From Flavobacteriales bacterium (GTDB taxonomy: Bacteria; Bacteroidota; Bacteroidia; Flavobacteriales_G; JALEGO01): DNA of 32,632 nucleotides. The position numbers were made by a program, and so were the translations under genes. The notes below the pieces were generated by a model that made no database searches, was not told where the DNA came from, and was given only the letters and a program-made list of their open reading frames with translations. Positions within the stretch are counted from its first letter, which is position 1. Every line of letters begins with the position of its first letter. Where the stretch lies: contig JALEGO010000412.1 of NCBI GenBank assembly GCA_022763165.1, positions 1 to 32,632 of the forward strand, written 5' to 3'. Positions 4,502 to 31,469 of the stretch are shown one piece after another.

Positions 4502-7500
4502 TTGATCAATCTGAGACTTCATAAACTTTTGACACTTATACTTGTGCATTTGAGTATTTTATCAAATGCTCAATTAAATGTCCTTAACACTCCACAAAAC
4601 ACAAATGGCTCGCCTGTTTGGCTGATAGAAAATGTGCTCTTAGGCAATGGCGTTACGGCAACCAACATAAGCTTTCAAGGAGATTCCAATGTTCAGGTTG
4701 GGTTTTTTGATCAAAACAATTCCAATATCCCATTATCAAGCGGAATTATTATGACAACGGGAAATATTGGACTGGCTCCTGGAAGTCCTGGAAATTTTCA
4801 GCCGAATGCTGGTCTTGATCTTGCCAGTGGGGCAGGAGACCCAGATTTACAATCCCTCGTTGGCGGTGCATCTACCAATGATGCTATTATTCTTGAGTTT
4901 GATTTTGTTCCTTTAGGAGACTCCGTCAGCTTTAACTATGTTTTTGCTTCGGAAGAATACCCTGAATGGGTTTGTTCCAATTTTAATGATGTATTTGGTT
5001 TTTTTATTAGCGGACCAGGAATAAACGGTTCTTTCAGCAATGGCGCTGCTAACATTGCGCTTATCCCTGGAACTTCGACTCCCGTTGCCATCAACTCTGT
5101 AAATCCAGGTGTATCTGGGAACAACGGACAGGACTTAAATTGTGATAACCTTGATCCCAATTGGCCAAACTACAATATCTATTATAACGACAATGTTGGT
5201 GCAGGCGGAAATGCAATTGAATATGACGGGTTCACAACTGTGCTGACTGCTTTTAGAACTGGATTGCAGTGTGGTCAAGTTTATCACATAAAACTCGCTA
5301 TAGCTGATGTCTTTGACGGAACCTTCGATTCAGCCGTTTTCTTGGAGCAGGGAAGTTTTACAGCTCCAGGTATTAAAGTCGAGGTCAAAACAGTAACCGG
5401 AGATGAAACCATGATTGAAGGATGTGCGGAAGCCAATTTTATTTTCATCAGACCTGATACCATCGGCTTTGATTCCGTGTCATTTGACATCGCAGGAAAC
5501 GCAATCAATGGTGTAGATTATTCATTTCTGAGTAACACCGTAATCTTTCAGCCAGGAGAAGATAGCGTAACAGTAACCATTTCTCCAATCGCTGATGGAG
5601 TAGCAGAAGGCACTGATACTGTGATCGTAACCGTCATGAATATAACACAATGTGGAGACACTGTTTTCGAAACAGCAGAACTCTTTATTGTTGATGGATA
5701 CAATCTTCCTATTTCAGCCAATAATGTTTCCATTACCTGTCCGAATGATACCGTAACAATATCTGCTAATGCTTCCGGAGGGACTCCTCCTTACGACTAT
5801 GTATGGAGCAATGGTGATAACAATCAATCCACTGATGTGTCTCCATTTGCTACGGATACGTTTTTTGTTACGGCTACTGACTTTCCCGGATGCCCTGGTA
5901 TTGATACCGTTATAGTGACGGTGTTAAATCCCAACCCTCCGATTTTCGCTGGGGTTGATACAGGCTTTTGCTTAGGGGACAGTATTCAACTACTTGCTAC
6001 AGGAGGGGTCAGTTATTTATGGAGCCCACCCTCTGGGTTGAGCAGTACTAATATTCCTAATCCATTTGCATTTGGAGGCGGCATTAATACTTATTTCGTG
6101 ACTGGTACAGACGTAAATGGCTGCCAGAATATAGACACAATCGTGGTTACTGGAGACTCAATCCCTTTCATTCAAGTTCGAACTGATACAGCAATATGCC
6201 TCAATGATTCCATTCAATTAGGAGGTAATCCTTCTGGCCCTGGCAACGCCACTTTCTCTTGGTCTCCTACAGGATCACTTAACGATGCAAGTAGCGATAA
6301 TCCCTGGGCTACACCAAATATTTCAACGCAATATATCTTGACTGTCATCAGTGCAGGAAATTGTGCCACAACAGATACTGTTGACATTACTGTTTTGACT
6401 TTACCTGTCGTTACTTCAAGTAATGATACTCAAATTTGTTCTGGAGATACAATACCCTTATTCGCTAGTGGCGGATTGAATTATTTATGGTCTCCAGGAA
6501 TTTCATTGAGTTCAAATAATATTTCAACACCAGACGCCTTTCCAAGCGATACTACAAACTACATTGTTTCTGTCACAGATGCCAATAACTGTACTTCCAC
6601 AGATACCGTGCTGGTTATTGTAAACCCTCTCCCCGCTGCTGAGGCCGGACAAAACTCCTGGCTATGCCCTGGTTCAAATTTCCAATTGAACGCTTCCGGT
6701 GGTCAGACTTATGCTTGGTTTCCAAATCAGTTCTTAACGGATAGTTCAATCAATAACCCGGTAGCAACTCCTCCTGATACAATTGTCTATTACGTTATCG
6801 TAACAGACTCAAACAACTGTGTCAATATCGATTCTATTCAGCTTGATGTTGGCAATGTTGTTCCGGTTAACGCTGGAAATGACACAGGGGTTTGTATTCA
6901 AGATACTATTGCTCTAGGCGGTAGCCCTACTGCTCCACCTGGATCCGACTATGCTTGGGCCCCAAATATTTTCATAAATGATACCACTTTGGCAAACCCA
7001 TTAGTGAGTCCAAATATTGCCATTCAATACACAGTTTTCGTAACCAATGACACTTGTTCTGGAGCAGATACAATTAATCTTGTCGTTTACAATCTTCCAA
7101 ATGTTGATGCCTTTGGAGACACTTCAATATGCTTGAACGACTCTACCTTATTGGTGGCTACTGGAGGCATTGGGTTTTCATGGAGTCCAGTAAATGGCTT
7201 AAGCAGCCCAAATGACGATAGCACCTATGCGTCACCCGATTCGACAACAATGTATTTTGTCGAAATCACGGATACAAACAATTGTTCTGTGACAGATTCA
7301 GTAGAAGTAGAAATCTTCAATCTTCCCATACCCATCTCAAGCAACGATACCACTATTTGCATAGGAGATACCATCCAATTGACAAGCTCTGGAGGACAAT
7401 CATATTTGTGGAGCCCTAATATATCTATACTAAACCAAACAAATGACACTGCTCTAGCCTTTCCTCAGGACACGGTGATTTACATGGTCCTGGTTACGGA

Positions 7501-8989
7501 TAGCAATAACTGTAGTACTTTCGATACTGTTGCCGTTAATGTTTTCCCTAGAGTTGATGTAACAATATTTGGAGATACCTCCTTGTGTATTGGAGATAGC
7601 GTTTCACTATCAGCTTCAGGAGCAATTTCTTACGCTTGGAGTCCTGGATCTATTATTCTGCCCATTTCAGCTGACTCTATTTTGGCATTCCCTACAAGCA
7701 ATGATTCTATTTATTTGACAACGATTGACACGAATAATTGTCAAAAGACAGACACGATCCTTTTGACTGTTAATAATTTACCAGTTATAACCCTCCAGGA
7801 TTCCCTCTTTTTATGTCTTTTTGATACAGCAACGATTCCTGTTTCCGGAGCACAAAATTATACCTGGAACCCATCGGGCTCTCTGCAAATGACAGGAAAT
7901 GACTCCGTTTCCTTTTTCACTACAGATACAAGCTTCATTCAACTAGCAGCAACAGATGTAAATGGTTGCATTAGTTTTGATTCAATTTTTGTGCTTACAT
8001 ACCCTCTTCCAGAACTTGGTCTCAGTTCTGACACTTCAACCTGCGCACAAGATAGTGTTAATGTCACGGCAGCCGGAACCGGTACTTTTCTTTGGACACC
8101 TATCACCGGAATTAGCAACCCAGGTAGTGCTTCTGTAACCATTGCACCGCCAATTGACTCAATGGTCTATAGTGTTCAATTAACAGATTCAAATAATTGC
8201 GTGAATAATCAGTCAACAACCATTTATACTTTTGGGATAAGCATCTCTAGCGATACAGCGATTTGTGATGCTGAGCGTTTTCAATTTGCAACTACAGTCA
8301 TTGGCGGCAACGAACCTATTCGCTATACATGGATGCCGAGTGAAAACCTCTCGGACCCTTTAGTTGCAGAACCTTTCGTGAATATTGCAAACAACACCTT
8401 GTTTACCTTGATTGCTATTGACACAACCGGATGTGCGGATACCGCTATTTCAACTTTGGATGTCAAAAGCAATCCTCTCGCAAACTTTGATATGGACATA
8501 TTGCCCAGTTGTGAAGGCGTGCTTGTAAAGTTAGATAACAGCAGCCTCAATGCCTTGAGTGCTACATGGTACATCAATGATGATGACAGCTCTTTTGTTG
8601 ACAACATCGAGAGGGTTTTTGAATATGGCGATTCCGTTAATGTCAGATTATTAGTTGTAAACGCTGAAAACTGTGTTGATGACACCATCACAAATCTAAA
8701 CTTAAACACTTTCAAAGAGTACATGGATTTTGATTTAGCAAATGTCTTCACGCCAAATTTTGATGGGCAAAACGAATGGTTCGAGCTGAATATTGCCAAT
8801 GATTTGCAGGATTGTTCTGAGTTGAGAATTTTCAATCGGTGGGGACAATTGATGTTCATTTCCCAAGGCAATAATCACTCATGGAACGGAAGAAGCTTTG
8901 ATGGACAAGAGGCTCCAGAAGGAGTTTATTTCTATACACTTGAAGTTTCAGAATTAGACTTTAGCGGCTACATTCAACTCATTCGTTAG
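4502..8989 (+). CDS. Large secreted T9SS type-B (gliding motility-associated C-terminal domain) adhesin-like protein with choice-of-anchor-L, Calx-beta-like and about 12 repeated Ig/PKD-like modules
   Basis: Signal peptide 'LRLHKLLTLILVHLSILSNAQ'; 'FVFASEEYPEW...FNDVFGFFISGPG' region typical of choice-of-anchor L; 'GVDYSFLSNTVIFQPGEDSVTVTISPIADGVAEGTDTVIVTV' Calx-beta-like; repeats 'C.NDSIQL.ATGG.SYLWSP..GLS....NP.A.P..T..Y.V.VTD.NNC...D'; C-terminal 'VFTPNFDGQNEWFEL...LRIFNRWGQLMFIS...WNGRSFDGQEAPEGVYFYTLEV'. TTG start immediately after the asd stop. Confidence 0.88.
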   Translation: MINLRLHKLLTLILVHLSILSNAQLNVLNTPQNTNGSPVWLIENVLLGNGVTATNISFQGDSNVQVGFFDQNNSNIPLSSGIIMTTGNIGLAPGSPGNFQPNAGLDLASGAGDPDLQSLVGGASTNDAIILEFDFVPLGDSVSFNYVFASEEYPEWVCSNFNDVFGFFISGPGINGSFSNGAANIALIPGTSTPVAINSVNPGVSGNNGQDLNCDNLDPNWPNYNIYYNDNVGAGGNAIEYDGFTTVLTAFRTGLQCGQVYHIKLAIADVFDGTFDSAVFLEQGSFTAPGIKVEVKTVTGDETMIEGCAEANFIFIRPDTIGFDSVSFDIAGNAINGVDYSFLSNTVIFQPGEDSVTVTISPIADGVAEGTDTVIVTVMNITQCGDTVFETAELFIVDGYNLPISANNVSITCPNDTVTISANASGGTPPYDYVWSNGDNNQSTDVSPFATDTFFVTATDFPGCPGIDTVIVTVLNPNPPIFAGVDTGFCLGDSIQLLATGGVSYLWSPPSGLSSTNIPNPFAFGGGINTYFVTGTDVNGCQNIDTIVVTGDSIPFIQVRTDTAICLNDSIQLGGNPSGPGNATFSWSPTGSLNDASSDNPWATPNISTQYILTVISAGNCATTDTVDITVLTLPVVTSSNDTQICSGDTIPLFASGGLNYLWSPGISLSSNNISTPDAFPSDTTNYIVSVTDANNCTSTDTVLVIVNPLPAAEAGQNSWLCPGSNFQLNASGGQTYAWFPNQFLTDSSINNPVATPPDTIVYYVIVTDSNNCVNIDSIQLDVGNVVPVNAGNDTGVCIQDTIALGGSPTAPPGSDYAWAPNIFINDTTLANPLVSPNIAIQYTVFVTNDTCSGADTINLVVYNLPNVDAFGDTSICLNDSTLLVATGGIGFSWSPVNGLSSPNDDSTYASPDSTTMYFVEITDTNNCSVTDSVEVEIFNLPIPISSNDTTICIGDTIQLTSSGGQSYLWSPNISILNQTNDTALAFPQDTVIYMVLVTDSNNCSTFDTVAVNVFPRVDVTIFGDTSLCIGDSVSLSASGAISYAWSPGSIILPISADSILAFPTSNDSIYLTTIDTNNCQKTDTILLTVNNLPVITLQDSLFLCLFDTATIPVSGAQNYTWNPSGSLQMTGNDSVSFFTTDTSFIQLAATDVNGCISFDSIFVLTYPLPELGLSSDTSTCAQDSVNVTAAGTGTFLWTPITGISNPGSASVTIAPPIDSMVYSVQLTDSNNCVNNQSTTIYTFGISISSDTAICDAERFQFATTVIGGNEPIRYTWMPSENLSDPLVAEPFVNIANNTLFTLIAIDTTGCADTAISTLDVKSNPLANFDMDILPSCEGVLVKLDNSSLNALSATWYINDDDSSFVDNIERVFEYGDSVNVRLLVVNAENCVDDTITNLNLNTFKEYMDFDLANVFTPNFDGQNEWFELNIANDLQDCSELRIFNRWGQLMFISQGNNHSWNGRSFDGQEAPEGVYFYTLEVSELDFSGYIQLIR
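6000..8350 (+). repeat. Tandem Ig/PKD-like modules in the 1495-aa adhesin (array begins near 5720)
   Basis: Recurring protein motif D(T/S)..C..D(S/T)..L.A.GG..Y.WSP at roughly 75-80 aa spacing. Confidence 0.75.
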
Positions 8990-19414: not shown

Positions 19415-22400
19415 TTATCTAACAAGCGTAATCGTTCCTTTTGTGGACCTAATCTTGGAATTTCCTTCAATGGTATAAGTAACTTTGTACATATAAATAT
19501 CCTGTTTTGCCGGATTTCCATTCTTATTGCCATCCCAGCCCAATTCTAAATCCTCGGTTTGGAAAATAATGTCTCCCCACCTATTGAAGACCAACATCTC
19601 GAATTGTTCTATACGCGTTGCTTCAGGTTTAAAAATATCGTTCAAACCATCGTCATTGGGTGAAAAGGCATTTGGCATAAACAACCCACAATATTCTTCT
19701 ACAACTAAAACAGAATCTTCATACAAGCACCCTGCTGGACTAATCACAGCCAAGTAATTAAACCCAGGTTGTTCCAACAAAAAGAAATTGGTTCCGACTT
19801 CTCCGTTCCAAAGGTGAGTTAGGTCTGAGCTCAGTCCCGAATTGACCGTATAAGATTGACCGCTGCAGATTTGAATCTCTTCTTCCAAACCAATATTCAT
19901 ATTGTCATATGTGATTTCAATTGTGTCTGCATCACTGCATTGACCGGTATTGATCAACACAAAATAGGTTCCCGGTTCATTGATGACCAGAGCCGTATCC
20001 GTACTAAGATCACTCCACAAATGACTGAATTGGGCTGAAGAATTTTGAGGTTGAAGCGTCAGTGTATCCCCTTGACAAAGTAACATATCTTGACCTAAGT
20101 CAGCATTCAATTCAATGACTTCAACATTCACCGTATCCCATGCCCAGCAATCTCCGTTCCCAACCTTCACAAAATATGTTCCTTCATTTTGCACCGCTAT
20201 AGCGCTTGTCGTACTTCCATTATTCCATAGAATATTGCTTGCAGTAGTATCTGAAATTCTGAGTACAACAGTTGCGCCTTCACAAATCGTGGTGTCTGAG
20301 CCTAGATTAAAGTCAAGTGCTCTAAAACCAATCGAAATGGAGTCAAGTGCATTGCACTGAGGACTACCGACAAAAACTGAATAGGTACCACCTTGAACAA
20401 CGCTTATAGATTGTGTTGTTTCTCCTGTACTCCAGAGATAGTTGTTGTTTAGACCAGCGTTAAGCGTAAAACTATCATCGCAAATACTGGTATCGCTTCC
20501 TAACTTCACTTCGGCTGATTCATAAGTAACCCCAATAGTATCTCTCAACAAGCAATTATTATTGCTTATTTCCACATAATGTGTCCCAGAGGTTTGTACA
20601 TAGATTTTGCTATTTGCTATCACTCCATCCCATAAATAGTTTTGAGCAGATGGATGGTAAGCGGATAATAAAACAGAGTCTACATTACAGGCAAATGTAT
20701 CTGGACCAAGGTCCAAGCTCAAGTCATCAAAAGTGACCTGCATTGAGTCGGTGTCAGTGCAAAAACCATCACTTACCGTGATTTGATATGCAGCGCTTTG
20801 GTTTACAGTAATGTTCGAAGTGGTGCTCCCTGTGCTCCACAAGAAATCAGCCCCTTGTCCAAGAACAGTGATAGTTAGAGTTGAGTCTGAACAAACAACA
20901 GTATCATTAGGCAGGTTGGCTTGTGCAAAATTCAAGGTTATATCAATGGTATCACTGAAGGTGCAATTTGCATTTGAAACTGTAAGATTATAAGACCCTG
21001 TTGAATTTATGTAAATGTTCGAAGTTGTCTCTCCGGTATTCCACTGATAAGATGCATTTTGGACTGTGGCTCCTATCAGAAACGAGTCAACATTGCAAAG
21101 TGATGTATCCACCCCTAAGTCAAAATAGAGACTGTCAATTGTCACTTGGATTGTATCTTGATCTGAACAGCCATTAGCATCAGTAGCAGAAACCCAATAT
21201 GTCCCCGTTGTGTTTGCTGTAATTTGATTATTCGTTGAATTATTGCTCCATAAGAATATTCCTTGACTTATTCCAACATTTAAATTCAGAGCACTTCCAT
21301 CGCAAATCGCGGTGTCGGGCCCTAAATCTACTTCAAATTGATTTAGTGTCACTTGAAAAGTATCTACAGAGGTACAAGCGCTACTTGATGAAGTCATTGT
21401 TACGCTATATGTCCCATTGCTATTGACATAAAGATTGTTGCCGGTAGAACCATCACTCCAAACATAGTTATATGAAGCATTCAACGTTAGGTTTGTATCG
21501 GAAAGACATGTTTGGATATTCGCAATATCCACATGAACAGAGTCTATTGTTAATGTAATGGTGTCGGCATCAGAACAAACACCATTTGTTACGGAAACAG
21601 AATAAACACCACTATTCAATGCGGTAAAAGTTTGATTTGTAGAACCATCATTCCACAAATAAGTACTTCCAGAATTTTGGGCATCAAGGGTAATGCTTTG
21701 CCCCAGACACGTTGCATAGTCTGGTCCCAGGTCTACCTCCAAACTCCCGATAGAAACATTGATAGAATCCATTGCGCTGCAACCATTTTGAAATACCTCA
21801 ACAATATAAGAGCCACTATTCAATACATAAATGTTATTATTCGTATCTCCCGTAGACCATAAGGTAGAATCCCAATTGCCGCTTGAACTGAGTAAAACGG
21901 AGTCATTAATACAATCCGTTACATCCGACCCTAAATCAATTGTGATTCCTAAAATTTGGACATCAATGGAGTCGCTCGCAACACAGGTGCCATCGGTCAC
22001 AGTTAAAACATAAAGGCCTGAAGCACTAACACTAATGCTATTTGCTGTTTCACTATTTGACCATAAGTAATTTATTCCTGCGTTCGAGTTGTTACTCGCC
22101 AATATGAGTGAAGTATCACATGTACTGGTATCACTTCCAAGATTTTCGGTAAGGTGTCTTAATTCAATTGTGAAAGTATCTGTAGCAGTGCAGTGTTGTT
22201 TTGTCACATCAATGAAATAAACTCCATTATTCTGTACCCAAATTGAAGTATCAGTTTGACCTGTGCTCCATGAGTAGCTATCAAAATTATCTTGAGGATC
22301 AATCAATATGGAATCTTGATTGCAAGTCACTGAGTCAGATATGTCTACAAGTAGTCCCATCTCAATTTGAACTGAATCAATCCCAAAACATCCATTATTC

Positions 22401-25400
22401 GAAACAGTAACAGCATAAATTCCAGATGTATTAACTGTCTCAGTCTGGCTATAACCACCTGTAGACCAGCTAAATGTACTCCCAGTATGTGAGGCATCCA
22501 AGGTAATTGAGCCGGGTGTACACAACAGAGTATCATTTCCAAGATCTACAGCAAAATCCGATAAGTAAACATTAACAGTATCTGTTTCTTGACAACCCGA
22601 TTGCGAACTTACGGTAACAATATAAGTCCCGGAATTCGTAGCCTGAATTACTTGCGAATTGCTTCCTGTGTTCCATTGAAAATAGTTCCCGGGATTACTG
22701 GCATCTAACCAAATTCCCCATGGATTGCTCCCATTGCAATCATAAATATCAGGTCCTAAATTGAGAGAAATGTTACCTGTCGTTGCTGTTACCACAGCCG
22801 TGTCTGACGCAGTGCATCCGTTAGCATCTGTAGCTGTAACGCTGTACGTTCCGGGCTGATTGACGGTTATGCTGTTGGTTGTGCTTCCATTGCTCCACAA
22901 TAAAGTCAGAGCTGAGTTATTTACACTAAAGGTAGCTGAAGCACCACTACAAATTAGCTTATCTGGTCCAATGTTAATGATTGGGGCGCTCATCAATACA
23001 TTGATAGTATCTTTATCAGTGCATGCCCCAGAGCCTACTGTTACATGATAGTTCCCACTGGATGTGACAACGAGCGTCTGAGCAGTAGAGCCATCGCTCC
23101 ATTGATACGTACTACCAGGGTTACCTGCATCTAAAGTCAAAGAACCTGAACAAAAGGTGGTGTCATTGCCGAGATTGACATTTAAACTACCCCCAACAGT
23201 CACCTGGATGGTATCTCTATCTGTACATGTTCCCGAGCTCACTGTCACGTGGTAGGTTCCGCTAGTTGCAACAACCAAAGACTGAGCTGTAGAACCATTG
23301 CTCCATTGATAAGTGCTGCCTGGGTTGCCCGCATCCAATGTCATAGACCCTGAGCAGAAGGTGGTGTCATTACCAAGATCAACAGATAGTGCCTTTATCC
23401 CAATTGTGACCGTGTCCCTTTCAAAACATCCGTTGGCATCCAAAACTGTAACATGGTACGTTCCGGTACCCACCGAATTAGTTTGGTTGGTAGAAGAATC
23501 ACTCCAACAATACAAATCATATATACCTCCAGGATCCAGAGTTATTGTAGTTCCGGGGCAGATAAGCGTATCCTCAAGATCAAAATCATTATCAGGAAAT
23601 GCTGCAAGATTAACTGATTCAGAGCCAGAACAACCATTAAAATCAGTGACAGTCACGGCATAAGTGCCTGGATTAAGTGTAGAAATACTTGAAGTTGTGG
23701 CGCCATTGCTCCACGCAAATTGACTATAATTTTGATAGGTAGAAATAGTAACAGGATCCTCTGAGCAAACACCAGGGTCTGTTAAAGCCAAGTTGGGATT
23801 TACAGTTTTGTTGCCAATGAAAATGTCATGATGCTTTGTACAGCCATTCACCTCATAAGTAATCGTGACGGTCGTTCCTCCCAATCCAGAAGCACTAAAA
23901 ATACCGTTTGAAGCGACTCCTATTCCAGACCAGGAGCCTCCCAAATTTCCTATTACGTAGTCGTTGAGATCAACAGTAGCGTTTAAACAAATCGTATCAG
24001 GGTTTATCCAAGCAGGATTCGAGTTTGGCGAAGGATTAAACTTTGCTAAAAACGCCCCGGAATTAAATGTTCCCCCGTTGGATGTGCTGAGTACATTACA
24101 AGAACTTGTAAATTGACTCTCATTATAATAAATTCCAGAGAGGTAAACGTTTCCATTAGCATCAATTGTTATGCCCTTTGCTTCGTCAGCAAGGGCCCCA
24201 GCGTGATTTAAGTTTTTCTGAGCCCATTGTAACGTTCCGTTTAAGTCATAGGAAGCAGCAAAAGCACCTGTAGCAAATCCGCTACTTAGAATATATGAAG
24301 CATTGGGGTTCGGATCAAAATCAGCATCTCCAATGATGTCCATTCCTCCAATAACCAATGCATTGTTTTTCAATTCAGCATCAAACAGGTGTAGGGCGTT
24401 GTTGTAACTGTTCAGCACTTTATACCATAGAAATTTACCTTGTGGACTGTACTTGGCAAAGTAGATCGCCTGAGGACCTATTGGGTTGGTTGCAATCGAA
24501 TTTGTAGAGCCGTTTTGAGGATCAAAATCAATTCCATTGGGTGCATCGAAGTTCCCTACAACATAAATGTTTCCATTTTGATCAGAAAGTGGTTTTTTGA
24601 TTTGATTATGTTCTCCCTCTATCAAATTGGCCCAAATTAGGGTGCCGTCAATTCCTTTGTACTTAGCAACGTAAGCACTATTGTTTATGGAGCTTAGAGA
24701 TCGCACACCACTGCTTGGGTCAAAATCTACCGTAGTGTTAATTCCTCCAGTTATGATGATGTCATCATTCGCATCAAATGTACAATTCAAAATAGCATTA
24801 ACTCCAATGTATGAAATATCATTATCGACAGTAAATCCGAAAAGAAGCAGTCCATTTTGGTCATACTTGCAAATAAACTGTGAATACCCTCCAACTTGGG
24901 AACTCAAGTTATATGTGGCTCCCATTGGATTGAAGTTTACGTTTTGACCGCTGAACCTGCCCGTAACCAACATCTCGCCCTGACTATTAACATCCATCCC
25001 CATAACATAATAATGATTATGCATATGATTGGTTCCAAAAGTTCCTGGGTTAAAGGCTCCTTGTAGGTTGAAGGCCCAAACTAAACCTCCTGAGGAAGAA
25101 TACTTGGCAATAAAATAATCATGATTGGTAGCCGAAAGGATGTGGTTTCCAGCGGAAGGATCAAAATCAACATTTTGGTTTTCAAAAGTCCCTGAAATAT
25201 AAACGTTGTTCTGGTCATCAATGTCAAAATAACCAAAGAGCCCCTTATCTCCTGCCGCAGAGGCAGCCCTGTTCACAGGAATGTCAAAACCCCATACTAA
25301 GTTGCCAGAATTATCATATTTTCCAAGAAACGTTCCTAAACCCGGAACAATTTGAGGAGTCATACTCAAAACACCAGCTCCAGGGTCAACATCAATTGTT

Positions 25401-25582
25401 CCTGCAAATGAGCCGTACACTATGATATCGTCATTCTGATCGACTTTGACATAAGGATACAGTTCATTGCTCGAATTCTCATCAGTAATATTGAACAGAT
25501 CATAAGCATATTGACTAAAAACTACAGAGCAAATGCACCACAGAAGTATAGTTAGACAATATTTATTGATTTGAATTATCAT
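19415..25582 (-). CDS. Giant T9SS type-B secreted protein: N-terminal SBBP-like propeller (about 7 blades) + about 20 Ig-like modules + gliding motility-associated C-terminal domain
   Basis: Signal peptide 'MIIQINKYCLTILLWCICSVVFSQ'; blades 'GSFAGTIDVDPGAGV...', 'GTFENQNVDFDPSAGNHILSATNHDYFIAKYSSSGGLVWAFNL' etc.; modules '(V/N)DLG.DT..C...LTLDA...GSTY.WS.GST...I.V...GTY.V.V..G.C...D'; C-terminal 'LFMPNAFSPNDDGLNDIFKPEA...EMLVFNRWGDIIFQTEDLELGWDGNKNGNPAKQDIYMYKVTYTIEG'. Confidence 0.9.
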   Translation of the reverse strand: MIIQINKYCLTILLWCICSVVFSQYAYDLFNITDENSSNELYPYVKVDQNDDIIVYGSFAGTIDVDPGAGVLSMTPQIVPGLGTFLGKYDNSGNLVWGFDIPVNRAASAAGDKGLFGYFDIDDQNNVYISGTFENQNVDFDPSAGNHILSATNHDYFIAKYSSSGGLVWAFNLQGAFNPGTFGTNHMHNHYYVMGMDVNSQGEMLVTGRFSGQNVNFNPMGATYNLSSQVGGYSQFICKYDQNGLLLFGFTVDNDISYIGVNAILNCTFDANDDIIITGGINTTVDFDPSSGVRSLSSINNSAYVAKYKGIDGTLIWANLIEGEHNQIKKPLSDQNGNIYVVGNFDAPNGIDFDPQNGSTNSIATNPIGPQAIYFAKYSPQGKFLWYKVLNSYNNALHLFDAELKNNALVIGGMDIIGDADFDPNPNASYILSSGFATGAFAASYDLNGTLQWAQKNLNHAGALADEAKGITIDANGNVYLSGIYYNESQFTSSCNVLSTSNGGTFNSGAFLAKFNPSPNSNPAWINPDTICLNATVDLNDYVIGNLGGSWSGIGVASNGIFSASGLGGTTVTITYEVNGCTKHHDIFIGNKTVNPNLALTDPGVCSEDPVTISTYQNYSQFAWSNGATTSSISTLNPGTYAVTVTDFNGCSGSESVNLAAFPDNDFDLEDTLICPGTTITLDPGGIYDLYCWSDSSTNQTNSVGTGTYHVTVLDANGCFERDTVTIGIKALSVDLGNDTTFCSGSMTLDAGNPGSTYQWSNGSTAQSLVVATSGTYHVTVSSGTCTDRDTIQVTVGGSLNVNLGNDTTFCSGSLTLDAGNPGSTYQWSDGSTAQTLVVTSSGNYHVTVGSGACTDKDTINVLMSAPIINIGPDKLICSGASATFSVNNSALTLLWSNGSTTNSITVNQPGTYSVTATDANGCTASDTAVVTATTGNISLNLGPDIYDCNGSNPWGIWLDASNPGNYFQWNTGSNSQVIQATNSGTYIVTVSSQSGCQETDTVNVYLSDFAVDLGNDTLLCTPGSITLDASHTGSTFSWSTGGYSQTETVNTSGIYAVTVSNNGCFGIDSVQIEMGLLVDISDSVTCNQDSILIDPQDNFDSYSWSTGQTDTSIWVQNNGVYFIDVTKQHCTATDTFTIELRHLTENLGSDTSTCDTSLILASNNSNAGINYLWSNSETANSISVSASGLYVLTVTDGTCVASDSIDVQILGITIDLGSDVTDCINDSVLLSSSGNWDSTLWSTGDTNNNIYVLNSGSYIVEVFQNGCSAMDSINVSIGSLEVDLGPDYATCLGQSITLDAQNSGSTYLWNDGSTNQTFTALNSGVYSVSVTNGVCSDADTITLTIDSVHVDIANIQTCLSDTNLTLNASYNYVWSDGSTGNNLYVNSNGTYSVTMTSSSSACTSVDTFQVTLNQFEVDLGPDTAICDGSALNLNVGISQGIFLWSNNSTNNQITANTTGTYWVSATDANGCSDQDTIQVTIDSLYFDLGVDTSLCNVDSFLIGATVQNASYQWNTGETTSNIYINSTGSYNLTVSNANCTFSDTIDITLNFAQANLPNDTVVCSDSTLTITVLGQGADFLWSTGSTTSNITVNQSAAYQITVSDGFCTDTDSMQVTFDDLSLDLGPDTFACNVDSVLLSAYHPSAQNYLWDGVIANSKIYVQTSGTHYVEISNNNCLLRDTIGVTYESAEVKLGSDTSICDDSFTLNAGLNNNYLWSTGETTQSISVVQGGTYSVFVGSPQCNALDSISIGFRALDFNLGSDTTICEGATVVLRISDTTASNILWNNGSTTSAIAVQNEGTYFVKVGNGDCWAWDTVNVEVIELNADLGQDMLLCQGDTLTLQPQNSSAQFSHLWSDLSTDTALVINEPGTYFVLINTGQCSDADTIEITYDNMNIGLEEEIQICSGQSYTVNSGLSSDLTHLWNGEVGTNFFLLEQPGFNYLAVISPAGCLYEDSVLVVEEYCGLFMPNAFSPNDDGLNDIFKPEATRIEQFEMLVFNRWGDIIFQTEDLELGWDGNKNGNPAKQDIYMYKVTYTIEGNSKIRSTKGTITLVR
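19800..23780 (-). repeat. Tandem Ig-like modules (about 20) in the 2055-aa protein
   Basis: Recurring '(V/N)(D/N)LG.D...C...LTL.A....Y.WS.GST...I.V...GTY.V.V..G.C...D.I.V' at roughly 65-70 aa spacing. Confidence 0.8.
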
Positions 25583-27743: not shown

Positions 27744-28733
27744 TTAATCTACATTGATGAAAATGTACTCTCCAGAAGTAGCATCCTCTTCCCAGATTAC
27801 ACCCACTACATGTAAGTTATTTGTATCCCAGCTAGGATCAATAGTTAACGTTTCGCTAATAGTAGTTTCATCACCAGCGCTAGGTGAAGATCCAAGCGAA
27901 ACTCCCGCACCAGAAACACTTGCTCTAACCACATGATCGTGCTCGTAATTAGGGTCTGAAGTTCCTAATTGTTCGTAATCAGGGTGAGACGCATTAGACG
28001 TTCCGCCTCCAATATTATCTTCTACAATGAAAATGCTCAAATGATAATTGTTACTCGTTCCGTTTTGGAAAAACTTAACGTTACCCGTAACATCTCCAGT
28101 TGCAGCATCCAATGAAAGTTTGCAATTTGCTACAGGAGCTTGATTCAAGTAATCCGAAATGTATTGATCATTAAAAGAAGAATAAGTCACCAAACTGTCG
28201 CATACATAAATTTTAGGAATGCCTCCTCCAGTTGGTCGTTCCGTTTTTAACCAACCATATGCACTCCAATTATTCATTGGGTCTCCAGAACCAGAGTGGC
28301 CAGCTAAAACATGAACATCCGATGAAATAGCAGCATATTGCTCAATCGCATCGTGAGCTGAACCTCCGCATGGTCCACAATTTGTTCCCGTCCACTTAAT
28401 CACAAGAACACCTTGCTTGTTTGCTGGGCCATTTCCATTGTTTCCGCCATTTCCATTTCCTCCGTTACCATTATTGTCATCATCATCGTCTTCTTCAGCT
28501 TTCTTACAAGTACCATCGTCTTCTTCAGCAAGAGGGTTATAATTAGCCGCTAGAGGATCTGTACATCCTTTAGTAGGATATTTACAGCTTCCATCATCAA
28601 TAAGCGCTTCCGCGTTATAGTTTTTAGCTGTACCATCAGTACATCCTTCTTTCTTTTGACAAGACGTAGTAAATAAAATTGCAAGGATTGCAAGAACACT
28701 GAAATAATTATTCAGCAATAATGACTTTTTCAT
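27744..28733 (-). CDS. Lipoprotein with two DDGSC-type Cys repeats, acidic/Asn-Gly linker, and Omp28/thioredoxin-like domain
   Basis: Lipobox 'ILAILFTTSCQKKEG'; 'GCTDGTAKNYNAEALIDDGSCKY', 'GCTDPLAANYNPLAEEDDGTCKK'; linker 'EEDDDDDNNGNGGNGNGGNNGNG'; 'VLVIKWTGTNCGPCGGSAHDAIEQ' CxxC motif as in Omp28-like proteins. Confidence 0.75.
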   Translation of the reverse strand: MKKSLLLNNYFSVLAILAILFTTSCQKKEGCTDGTAKNYNAEALIDDGSCKYPTKGCTDPLAANYNPLAEEDDGTCKKAEEDDDDDNNGNGGNGNGGNNGNGPANKQGVLVIKWTGTNCGPCGGSAHDAIEQYAAISSDVHVLAGHSGSGDPMNNWSAYGWLKTERPTGGGIPKIYVCDSLVTYSSFNDQYISDYLNQAPVANCKLSLDAATGDVTGNVKFFQNGTSNNYHLSIFIVEDNIGGGTSNASHPDYEQLGTSDPNYEHDHVVRASVSGAGVSLGSSPSAGDETTISETLTIDPSWDTNNLHVVGVIWEEDATSGEYIFINVD

Positions 28734-28941: not shown

Positions 28942-29643
28942 CTAGAATCCTACTCGTTTAATAGATCTGGAGCTAAACTTTTTTGATGTCTCCGTTTTTA
29001 TTTCATTGCGTTGCGATATATAATCAGCGTAACTTTTAGAATACTTTACTCTGTTTTCAATGACCGTGTCAAAAGTATCTGAAAGCGCCAAAATTACCTC
29101 GCTTATCTCGCGAACAGCATTATTTCCTCCTTGATGGGCTGTAATATAATCGGCAAGTTTGTTTTTGACAATATATTCCTCGAGAAGAGGAGAGGCTGTT
29201 CTACAAACATTGAAATTAAGTCCACAGATTTCGCTAGCGCTTAAGTCCAGAATATCGTCATAAACAAAAATTATTTCTTCTGTGGTAATTTTGAGATCTG
29301 TTGCTATCTCACCGATTGCTTCCGCTTTCTTTTTGACTCCCAAAAAGATGCAATCCAGATGCTCTCTCTCAGCAAAATTAACAGCTATAGGATTGTGTTC
29401 TCCCGTAACAATATATGTCTTAAGGTTCTTACTTCCTTCCAACCAAAAATGAAATCTCATCATGTTCAGCCCCATTGAATCTGGCTCAGAAAAGGTACTT
29501 CCAAATAAGTGGTTCTTCGTGCCATTATTGAAAACGCCATCCCAATCAAAAACAAGGGCTTTAATAGACTTGAGCTTGGTGGTTATCTCTTTAGGTTTTG
29601 AGATGAATTTACCGCCAAGTTCTTCGAACTTTTTTACATCCAT
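28942..29643 (-). CDS. KdsC-like HAD phosphatase (divergent)
   Basis: 'IKALVFDWDGVFNNG' (HAD motif I DxD), 'YIVTGEHNPIAVNFAERE', 'KKKAEAIGEIATDL', 'IIFVYDDILDLSASEICGLNFNVCRTASPLLEEYIVKNKLADYITAHQGGNNAVREISEVILAL' matches the KdsC/YrbI layout. Confidence 0.8.
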   Translation of the reverse strand: MDVKKFEELGGKFISKPKEITTKLKSIKALVFDWDGVFNNGTKNHLFGSTFSEPDSMGLNMMRFHFWLEGSKNLKTYIVTGEHNPIAVNFAEREHLDCIFLGVKKKAEAIGEIATDLKITTEEIIFVYDDILDLSASEICGLNFNVCRTASPLLEEYIVKNKLADYITAHQGGNNAVREISEVILALSDTFDTVIENRVKYSKSYADYISQRNEIKTETSKKFSSRSIKRVGF

Positions 29644-29650
29644 ATATGGA

Positions 29651-30658
29651 TCAAATTAAATCCTGAATGTCTACTATGCCGGCAAAATCTCCATTATTTG
29701 TTGCAATGAGGTTGTCAACATGTCGTTCTCGACACAAATCAATGGCATCTTGTAGTGTGGCTTCGGCATCTATTGTTATGGGATTTTGACCCTCGAGTTC
29801 CGATAGTTTCAGTGCATGAATGTCTTGACCGTTTTGCTCTATAAGCCTTCTCAGATCACCATCAGTGAAGATTCTATAAATAGCCTCATTGTCATCTAGT
29901 ACTGCCACAGCCCCAAGTTTTGATTTAGACATTTGTAAAACCGCATCAATTACTTTGGCGTTTCCACTAATCTTCACATCTTCCTTTTTCATGACCTCTT
30001 CAACCTTTGTGGTAACCAAACGCGTATCAACAACAAACTGATTTGTTCCAATTGCCGTGAAGTGATTATCAGTTAGTTTTTTCATGAGTTTCCATGGAAC
30101 CGTGCATGTGTGCACACCAATATGCAAGGCGTTCTTAACATGTTCAACGTTTCTAACAGAAGAAAACATGATTTTTGATTTGTATCCATACTTCTGTGTG
30201 ATTTCAACACATTCTTTAACCAAACCCAGAGCATCATGTCCTTGGTCCTGCAATCGACCAACTAGAGGACAAACATAAGTCGCTCCTGCCCTAAACGCCA
30301 TATAAGCCTGCTGCACAGTGTAGACCAAATGCAGGTTTACCATAAACCCTTCATCAGTAAGCCTTTTGCAGGCAATCGTTCCATCCAGGGATATTGGTAT
30401 TTTAAAAACTGTTTTTGTTTTATCGAGTCCAATTGAAACAAGCCTTTTTGCTTCATCCACAATCTCATCCACACTGTCCCCAAGAGCCTCTACTTGTAAG
30501 ATATCGACATACTTTGCAATTTCAAGCATTTGGGCGTCAACATCCTTAATCCCTTCACGCAACATAAACGTTGGGGTGGTAGTAAGGCCAGTGAGGTAGC
30601 CCAATTTACTGCCTTCCTTTATCTCTTCGAGGTTGACTGAGTCTAAGTACAGTTCCAT
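29651..30658 (-). CDS. Transaldolase-family (FSA/TalC-like) domain fused to a KdsD-type CBS-domain pair
   Basis: N-terminus 'MELYLDSVNLEEIKEGSKLGYLTGLTTTPTF...TVFKIPISLDGTIACKRLTDEGFMVNLHLVYTVQQAYMAFRAGATYVCPLVGRLQDQG' (TIM-barrel transaldolase, Schiff-base Lys86 candidate). C-terminus 'VEEVMKK...LGAVAVLDDNEAIYRIFTDGDLRRLIEQ...ERHVDNLIATNNGDFAGIVDIQDLI' closely resembles KdsD CBS domains. Start set at ATG 30658; the track start 30694 overlaps kdsA. Confidence 0.88.
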   Translation of the reverse strand: MELYLDSVNLEEIKEGSKLGYLTGLTTTPTFMLREGIKDVDAQMLEIAKYVDILQVEALGDSVDEIVDEAKRLVSIGLDKTKTVFKIPISLDGTIACKRLTDEGFMVNLHLVYTVQQAYMAFRAGATYVCPLVGRLQDQGHDALGLVKECVEITQKYGYKSKIMFSSVRNVEHVKNALHIGVHTCTVPWKLMKKLTDNHFTAIGTNQFVVDTRLVTTKVEEVMKKEDVKISGNAKVIDAVLQMSKSKLGAVAVLDDNEAIYRIFTDGDLRRLIEQNGQDIHALKLSELEGQNPITIDAEATLQDAIDLCRERHVDNLIATNNGDFAGIVDIQDLI

Positions 30659-30659
30659 A

Positions 30660-31469
30660 TTATCTATATTTTTTCTCTGTGTTATGAATTTCAATTAGAG
30701 GCTTTAGAAATTCCTCTAAGTCATTTAAATCTAATTGGCTTGCCGCATCACATAGGGCTTTGCTTGGTTCAGGGTGTGCTTCGATGAAAACACCATCTAC
30801 CCCTGCAGCCACGCCAGATCTTGCCAAAGTTGGCAAGTACTGTCTTAATCCCCCTGAAGGGTCGGAGCTCGGGATACCATACTTTCTGATAGAATGTGTA
30901 ATATCAAAAATTGTCGGGTATCCAATTTCTCTAAGATCATAAAAACTTCTTGGGTCAACTATGAGGTCATTGTATCCAAAGGTATAACCTCTTTCGGTGA
31001 GCAATATATTCTTATTACCAACAGATTCTATCTTTTTCACTGGCTTGGCCATGTTTTCTGGAGCCAAAAATTGACCATGCTTAAGGTTAATCACTTTTCC
31101 TGTCTTTGCAGATTCAACAACCAATGTCGTTTGCATACACAAATATGCAGGAATCTGAATGATGTCCAGTACTTCACCGCAAGCAGCAACTTGTTCTGGG
31201 AAGTGAACATCAGAAAGGATTGGAAGATTGAATTCTTTTTTGATTTTTTCCAAAATTCTAAGACCTTCCTCAAGTCCTGGGCCTGTATAATAATCAACCG
31301 AACTCCTGTTATCCTTCATAAATGAAGACTTGAAAACTAAAGGTAGCTCAAGCCGTTCTGAAATTTCTTTCAGTCGTTCAGCCGTATTCATCATTAACCG
31401 CTCGTCTTCAATCACACAGGGGCCTGAAATCAAAAAGAACTTTTCCCAACTCAACTTATCTACATTCAT
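30660..31469 (-). CDS. KdsA-like 3-deoxy-ulosonate-8-phosphate synthase (divergent)
   Basis: 'FFLISGPCVIEDERLMMNTAERLKEI', 'FKSSFMKDNRSSVDYYTGPGLEEGLRIL', 'ILSDVHFPEQVAACGEVLDIIQIPAYLCMQTTLVVESAKTGKVINLKHGQFLAPENM', 'NILLTERGYTFGYNDLIVDPRSF', 'PTIFDITHSI', 'GVDGVFIEAHPEPSKALCDAASQL'. Confidence 0.85.
   Translation of the reverse strand: MNVDKLSWEKFFLISGPCVIEDERLMMNTAERLKEISERLELPLVFKSSFMKDNRSSVDYYTGPGLEEGLRILEKIKKEFNLPILSDVHFPEQVAACGEVLDIIQIPAYLCMQTTLVVESAKTGKVINLKHGQFLAPENMAKPVKKIESVGNKNILLTERGYTFGYNDLIVDPRSFYDLREIGYPTIFDITHSIRKYGIPSSDPSGGLRQYLPTLARSGVAAGVDGVFIEAHPEPSKALCDAASQLDLNDLEEFLKPLIEIHNTEKKYR

Follow-up and report, generated by a model that had tools for sequence, protein, structure and literature searches.

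Introduction

Kdo is an essential outer-membrane sugar that joins lipid A to the remainder of LPS. The route to Kdo, in which KdsD converts Ru5P to D-arabinose 5-phosphate (A5P) and KdsA, KdsC and KdsB act successively, is treated as fixed.

KdsD, GutQ and KpsF (TIGR00393) are composed of a SIS domain and two CBS domains. Tal-CBS, the 335-aa fusion protein described here, resembles them in its CBS pair, its FTDGDLRR motif, its slot beside kdsA/kdsB and the usual mutual exclusion of the two types, but it has no SIS domain, and its catalytic part is a transaldolase-fold barrel. With FSA/TalC (TIGR00875, PF00923), Tal-CBS shares the barrel fold, Asp6, the Schiff-base lysine and the phosphate-binding arginine pair, and it also keeps the glutamate of transaldolases. 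It differs from FSA/TalC in the donor pocket, where Asn, Thr, Ser/Ala and Phe/Tyr are replaced by Thr, His, Cys and Leu, in its fusion to CBS domains and in falling below the equivalog cut-off. Synthetic pathways have employed E. coli FsaA, which forms A5P from glycolaldehyde and D-glyceraldehyde 3-phosphate (G3P), as an "A5P aldolase" (PMC9947464, PMC6298115), and this is the same reaction as that proposed here for Tal-CBS. In FsaA, A5P formation is a side activity that engineering has exploited; in Tal-CBS, it would be what the enzyme naturally does, coupled to Kdo synthesis and regulated through the CBS domains. The adjacent KdsA* is like described KdsA (TIGR01362) in exceeding the family cut-off, in being metal-type and in its NRSS phosphate motif, but it belongs to a fusion-linked clade with an altered set of otherwise fixed residues. 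Among open-licence PMC papers, we found no report of a transaldolase, a fusion protein or an enzyme replacement in Kdo synthesis.

A transaldolase-fold barrel joined to a KdsD-type CBS pair

The window, that is, the whole stretch of 32,632 nucleotides analysed (contig JALEGO010000412.1), contains the following features of the operon.

29651..30658, minus strand: tal-cbs, 335-aa fusion protein; one intact ORF with an ATG start and no internal stops
30020..30658, minus strand: transaldolase/FSA-fold domain, residues 1-213 (PF00923, Foldseek, own clade)
29654..30019, minus strand: KdsD-type CBS pair, residues 214-335 (Pfam, KpsF/KdsD models, tree, PDB matches)
29843..29869, minus strand: FTDGDLRRL motif, common to KdsD CBS (sequence comparison)
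30401..30403, minus strand: Lys86, predicted Schiff-base lysine (invariant in 91/91 fusions)
30575..30577, minus strand: Thr28, where TAL/FSA have their donor-binding Asn (Thr in 91/91 fusions, Asn in 8/8 plain TALs)
30329..30331, minus strand: His110, in place of the catalytic-water Thr (His in 91/91, Thr in 8/8)
30263..30271, minus strand: Cys130-Pro-Leu132, where TAL has Ser-Pro-Phe and FSA has Ala-Pro-Tyr (alignment)
30660..31469, minus strand: kdsA*, KDO8P synthase of the fusion-specific clade, metal-type GPC (TIGR01362, 334.6 bits; cut-off 314)
31299..31316, minus strand: KDNRSS motif of KdsA* (canonical KANRSS), A5P/phosphate site (alignment)
31134..31151, minus strand: PAYLCM motif of KdsA* (canonical PAFLCR), acceptor pocket (alignment)
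28942..29643, minus strand: kdsC*, HAD phosphatase that is KdsC-like but divergent, catalytic residues intact (profile and alignment)

Residues 3-201 of Tal-CBS match TAL_FSA (PF00923, 2.6e-36), and two CBS domains are found at residues 216-335 (PF00571, 9e-15). The AlphaFold2 model of the full-length protein has a mean pLDDT of 87.4. The top Foldseek matches of the barrel are 1vpx, 3r8r and 3s0c, the transaldolases of T. maritima, B. subtilis and T. acidophilum, and its sequence identity to TalC-type transaldolases is 35-37%. The score against TIGR00875 is 158.5 bits, against an equivalog cut-off of 245.95 bits, and in the tree all Tal-CBS barrels fall into one long-branched clade that excludes plain transaldolases (100/100).

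Among CBS-containing family models, the KpsF/KdsD models match the C-terminal half best (TIGR00393, 60.7 bits; KdsD model, 58.3 bits). The TIGR00393 match is confined to the CBS part of the model (positions 154-267) and remains below the cut-off of 203.7 bits, the SIS domain being absent. By both sequence and fold, the solved CBS pairs that come closest (4o9k, 3fna and 3k2v) belong to KdsD proteins of Methylococcus, Klebsiella and E. coli; the best match, 4o9k, presumably has CMP-Kdo as its ligand. In a tree of 59 CBS pairs, the 22 fusion rows form one clade (100/99) beside the 21 KdsD rows (joint 88/85), with IMPDH, RPE-CBS and other CBS proteins branching elsewhere; the CBS profile scores are 55-87 bits for KdsD, 37-46 for IMPDH and 12-33 for others. 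The tree position points to KdsD or a close relative as the source of the CBS pair of Tal-CBS, and a generic CBS origin is ruled out by the tree and the profile scores.

These data bear out the earlier note on this DNA, which had read the N-terminus as an FSA/TalC-like transaldolase and the C-terminus as a tandem KdsD-type CBS pair, and had asked whether the CBS half would group with KdsD or with generic proteins such as IMPDH. It had also named an artefact, by frameshift or assembly, as a possible objection. With its 809 contigs, the window genome is a fragmented MAG and might invite suspicion of a frameshift, chimera or misassembly, yet the stop-free, full-length fusion occurs in 17 of the 43 genomes of the window's order and at 80 GTDB-contig loci, and thus in dozens of independent assemblies, among them two genomes assembled as one contig (G007 and G016) and named isolates. 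In addition, 91 distinct fusion TAL domains align without disruption. An artefact is thereby ruled out as far as we can judge, with a negligible probability left to it, and the search for the same fusion and neighbourhood that the earlier note proposed finds both recurring in Bacteroidota.

Active site of the barrel

Asp6, Glu57, Lys86, Asn108, Arg135, Ser167 and Arg169 are invariant in the 91 distinct fusion TAL domains. Lys86 aligns with Lys86 of T. acidophilum TAL, the residue changed in the Lys86Ala variant 3s1w, and its counterpart in FSA is Lys85 (PMC13259622). In E. coli FSA, the donor is contacted by Asp6 and Asn28, DHA is stabilised by Asn28/Ala129 and water is held by Gln59-Thr109-Tyr131 (PMC13259622). 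The FSA-type DHA donor pocket (Asn28, catalytic-water Thr, Tyr/Phe131) is absent from the fusions, which carry N28T, T110H and F132L in 91/91 and S130C in 90/91. The invariant Lys/Arg set, together with the replaced DHA- and water-binding positions, suggests that Tal-CBS probably still works through a Schiff base and binds a phosphorylated acceptor, and that it probably takes a donor other than DHA. A suitable donor would be glycolaldehyde, in which the C1 hydroxymethyl group is missing.

Operon partners KdsA* and KdsC*

As the earlier note had supposed, the neighbours of tal-cbs are kdsA-like and kdsC-like. kdsA* lies upstream with a 1-base gap and its product exceeds the KdsA family cut-off; kdsC* lies downstream with a 7-base gap. 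KdsC* is below the TIGR01670 subfamily cut-off (47.9 vs 106.95 bits), and the HAD catalytic residues D33, D35, K106, D129 and D130 are kept in 73-74 of the 74 KdsC* sequences. The order kdsB-kdsA-talCBS-kdsC recurs, often with kdsB in front (loci L048, L050, L051, L053-L057 and L059). Among 80 GTDB loci, a KdsC-like ORF was found in at least 59 and a KdsA ORF in at least 42, both lower bounds because the simple ORF picker drops overlapping frames. No other recurrent neighbour of tal-cbs and no source of glycolaldehyde near the operon were found in the GTDB loci. In the window, an Omp28-family lipoprotein gene (27744-28733, minus strand) adjoins the operon and is not conserved at that place, and two very large repeat proteins (19415-25582, minus strand; 4502-8989, plus strand) have C-termini that by eye look like the gliding-motility/type IX secretion type.

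The fusion-linked KdsA form one clade (100/100), which includes the KdsA of fusion genome G233, where kdsA is on a separate contig. At positions fixed in 18 canonical KdsA, 40 fusion-linked KdsA show A47D, F103Y, R106M, K125H, Q188R, P190Y and S232C (A. aeolicus numbering). D53, Y109 and M112 are common to all 40, and the KANRSS and PAFLxR motifs were not encountered in them. The NRSS phosphate motif is kept; in a Neisseria KdsA model, its Asn and Arg adjoin the A5P-side phosphate (PMC6650799). No statement on the role of KdsA Arg106 was found in the open-licence PMC papers searched. Within the order, every genome in which KdsC* was detected carries the fusion or, in the case of G037, a contig-end piece of it; these include genomes where KdsC* is not adjacent to the fusion (G007:C1:2615609, G008:C1:4204). 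Every fusion genome of the order has a canonical KdsC in addition to KdsC* (only fragments in G000 and G041).

The fusion-specific clades of both kdsA* and the TAL domain indicate that kdsA* and tal-cbs have moved together. Since KdsC* is limited to fusion genomes and KdsA* carries fusion-specific changes, kdsA*-talCBS-kdsC* is a strict unit of three divergent enzymes.

Distribution of the fusion and its relation to KdsD

At least 568 related stretches were found in GTDB contigs, and nearly all of the 80 loci examined are in contigs named as Bacteroidota. Named isolates with the fusion are Raineya orbicola, Thermonema rossianum, Thermoflexibacter ruber and Flexithrix dorotheae. TAL-CBS operons were also observed in MAGs labelled Proteobacteria and Desulfobacterales (L094, L126), by transfer or misbinning.

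In the window's order, KdsA is present in 26 of 43 genomes (25 over the family cut-off; that of G008 is truncated where its contig stops). Seventeen of the 26 carry the fusion and nine carry KdsD (eight over the cut-off, and G005 with a SIS-only version), with none having both or neither. The KdsD of G005 (L063:7615-8214) is a 199-aa protein without CBS, encoded between kdsA and kdsB. In a 398-genome sample of the phylum, KdsA was found in 292 genomes, KdsD in 287 and the fusion in six; the KdsA-positive genomes comprise 283 with KdsD, six with the fusion (G000, G133, G189, G233, G337 and G430, all without KdsD), three with neither and none with both. The three with neither are G065, G352 and G407, the last two being incomplete; G065 (L157), estimated to be 100% complete, has KdsA, and at the thresholds applied none of KdsD, TAL-CBS and RPE-CBS was found in it. 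Fisher tests on the KdsA-positive genomes, which ignore relatedness, gave 3e-7 for the order and 1e-10 for the phylum sample. Both types occur within six families (f1, f3, f5, f11, f13 and f20), so the swap from KdsD to the fusion probably happened several times.

In the order and phylum samples, the fusion and KdsD never occur together. Strict exclusion nevertheless broke down among 49 additional fusion genomes, eight of which also have a full KdsD (G441, G442, G443, G445, G471, G476, G479 and G487). We lowered the exclusion claim accordingly. No canonical KdsA was found within 12-18 kb of kdsD in these eight genomes. In the corresponding loci (L221-L228), an ORF of about 730 aa on the opposite strand mostly lies beside kdsD. 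KdsD may have been lost only after the module had been acquired, or the module may have an additional function in some genomes; MAG contamination is possible for some of the eight. Four of the eight rank among the six examined genomes with modules closest to that of the window, and G017, of the same close-module clade, carries an RPE-CBS operon besides the TAL fusion. The window genome itself (G000; 85.9% complete) was found to have neither KdsD nor canonical KdsA.

The central claim of the earlier note, that an aldolase fold has replaced SIS on a KdsD-derived CBS pair within a Kdo operon, is upheld by the CBS tree, the kdsA/kdsC linkage and the usual absence of KdsD. It had named as evidence to the contrary a complete canonical kdsD, fused or adjacent, in relatives in which this ORF is dispensable and conserved independently of kdsA/kdsC: the eight two-type genomes, four of them close relatives, show this in part; most fusion genomes are without KdsD and have the fusion linked to kdsA/kdsC. 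Replacement of KdsD is well supported for the family and less so for the window genome.

Remaining steps of the Kdo pathway

The fusion genomes of the order have no KdsA besides KdsA* and no KdsD. WaaA is present in 17/17, and KdsB is over the cut-off in most of them (cut in G008, not found in G009). A search for KdsB positions that separate fusion, KdsD and RPE-CBS genomes found none, and thus a changed end product visible in KdsB was rejected. The residues that we take to form the Kdo pocket of KdsB, numbered after E. coli KdsB, are kept in fusion genomes. KdsB without group-specific change and the presence of WaaA suggest that the pathway in fusion genomes still seems to end in Kdo.

The module may produce Kdo8P, in which case KdsC* would duplicate an existing phosphatase, or another product for which a dedicated phosphatase is required. 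Kdo8P is favoured by the unchanged KdsB and by the absence of a further KdsA; the KdsA* pocket and the co-occurrence with KdsD in 8/49 genomes leave some probability to the alternative.

An RPE-CBS operon in a neighbouring genus

In the neighbouring genus g11 and in G083, a ribulose-phosphate-3-epimerase (RPE) domain is fused to a CBS pair (L060:6623-9964; also L061, L062 and L192), and the gene is followed by those for a DAHP-synthase-like protein (KPRTSPYSFQG) and KdsC. This CBS pair is not KdsD-like in the 59-pair tree. Apart from G017, with its TAL fusion, the RPE-CBS genomes have neither KdsD nor canonical KdsA, and KdsB is mostly kept. The RPE-CBS operon is a possible second alternative Kdo route, and its occurrence in genomes without KdsD and KdsA suggests that the first Kdo steps were rebuilt more than once in Bacteroidota.

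Discussion

We consider it rather probable that Tal-CBS substitutes for KdsD by making the acceptor of KdsA, most likely A5P, through Schiff-base chemistry. For its reaction, donor, product and CBS ligand, we infer the following scheme. The barrel would form a Schiff base on Lys86 and would deliver the aldose phosphate that the adjoining KdsA accepts, most likely A5P. This could proceed by aldol addition of glycolaldehyde as donor to G3P as acceptor or, closely related, by reversible cleavage and re-addition that would convert ribose-5-P (R5P) to A5P. The KdsD-derived CBS pair would hold the first committed step under the control of a pathway end product. Carboligation is plausible, as it fits the residue changes and the FsaA precedent; TalB F178Y makes both A5P and R5P from glycolaldehyde and G3P (PMC6298115, PMC9947464). 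More tentatively, and at somewhat less than even probability in our view, the module may be a natural C-C-bond-forming route to A5P, in which glycolaldehyde and G3P would take the place of Ru5P as the starting material for Kdo, KdsA would have co-evolved, a phosphatase would have been added and the CBS regulation of KdsD would have been transferred to an unrelated catalytic fold. Against a simple swap stand the presence of KdsD in 8/49 fusion genomes, the altered acceptor pocket of KdsA* and the persistence of canonical KdsC.

The same role might be filled by other chemistry. Free glycolaldehyde is scarce in most cells, which speaks for a barrel that acts as a Schiff-base epimerase/isomerase and not as a carboligase, turning R5P (or Ru5P) into A5P within the active site. 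This would occur either by deprotonation and reprotonation of a Lys86 enamine or by retro-aldol/aldol reaction without release of glycolaldehyde. The formation of both A5P and R5P by TalB F178Y from the same substrate pair, the new His110 as a potential second acid/base and the epimerase-fold RPE head on a CBS pair in the parallel operon of another genus agree with it. We nevertheless hold this chemistry, by either mechanism, to be rather unlikely, because to our knowledge no natural transaldolase-fold epimerase exists and FsaA itself is A5P-specific.

A different product is likewise conceivable, if unlikely: kdsA*-talCBS-kdsC* could make another 3-deoxy-ulosonic acid, with KdsA* condensing another aldose phosphate with PEP and KdsC* removing the phosphate. 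This would agree with the KdsA* pocket, altered at positions fixed in canonical KdsA, with the restriction of KdsC* to fusion-bearing genomes of the order on top of canonical KdsC, and with the retained KdsD in 8/49 fusion genomes. It is opposed by the fusion genomes of the order, which have no other KdsA or KdsD and yet keep WaaA and a KdsB with an unchanged Kdo pocket, as well as by the frequent placement of kdsB in the same operon and the intact NRSS motif of KdsA*. By its fold and its identity to TalC-type transaldolases, Tal-CBS could also be an ordinary pentose phosphate pathway transaldolase that acquired a CBS pair and lies near kdsA incidentally. This is highly improbable given the KdsD-type CBS and the strict kdsA* linkage, and the donor pocket replaced in 91/91 and the separate long-branch clade rule out a housekeeping transaldolase. 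Moreover, a plain transaldolase is encoded alongside Tal-CBS in most fusion genomes of the order, so Tal-CBS is not the housekeeping enzyme.

With Tal-CBS as the substitute for KdsD, the first step of the textbook Kdo pathway appears to exist in an alternative form not described so far, and many Bacteroidota, the window genome probably included, seem to have swapped KdsD for an aldolase-type enzyme. If this is true, pathway annotation would be corrected in hundreds of Bacteroidota species, and glycolaldehyde, or a Schiff-base sugar epimerase, would gain a physiological role. Synthetic carbon-conserving pathways, which now rely on a side activity of FsaA, would have a natural A5P aldolase, and the CBS module would prove movable between catalytic folds at one step of a pathway.
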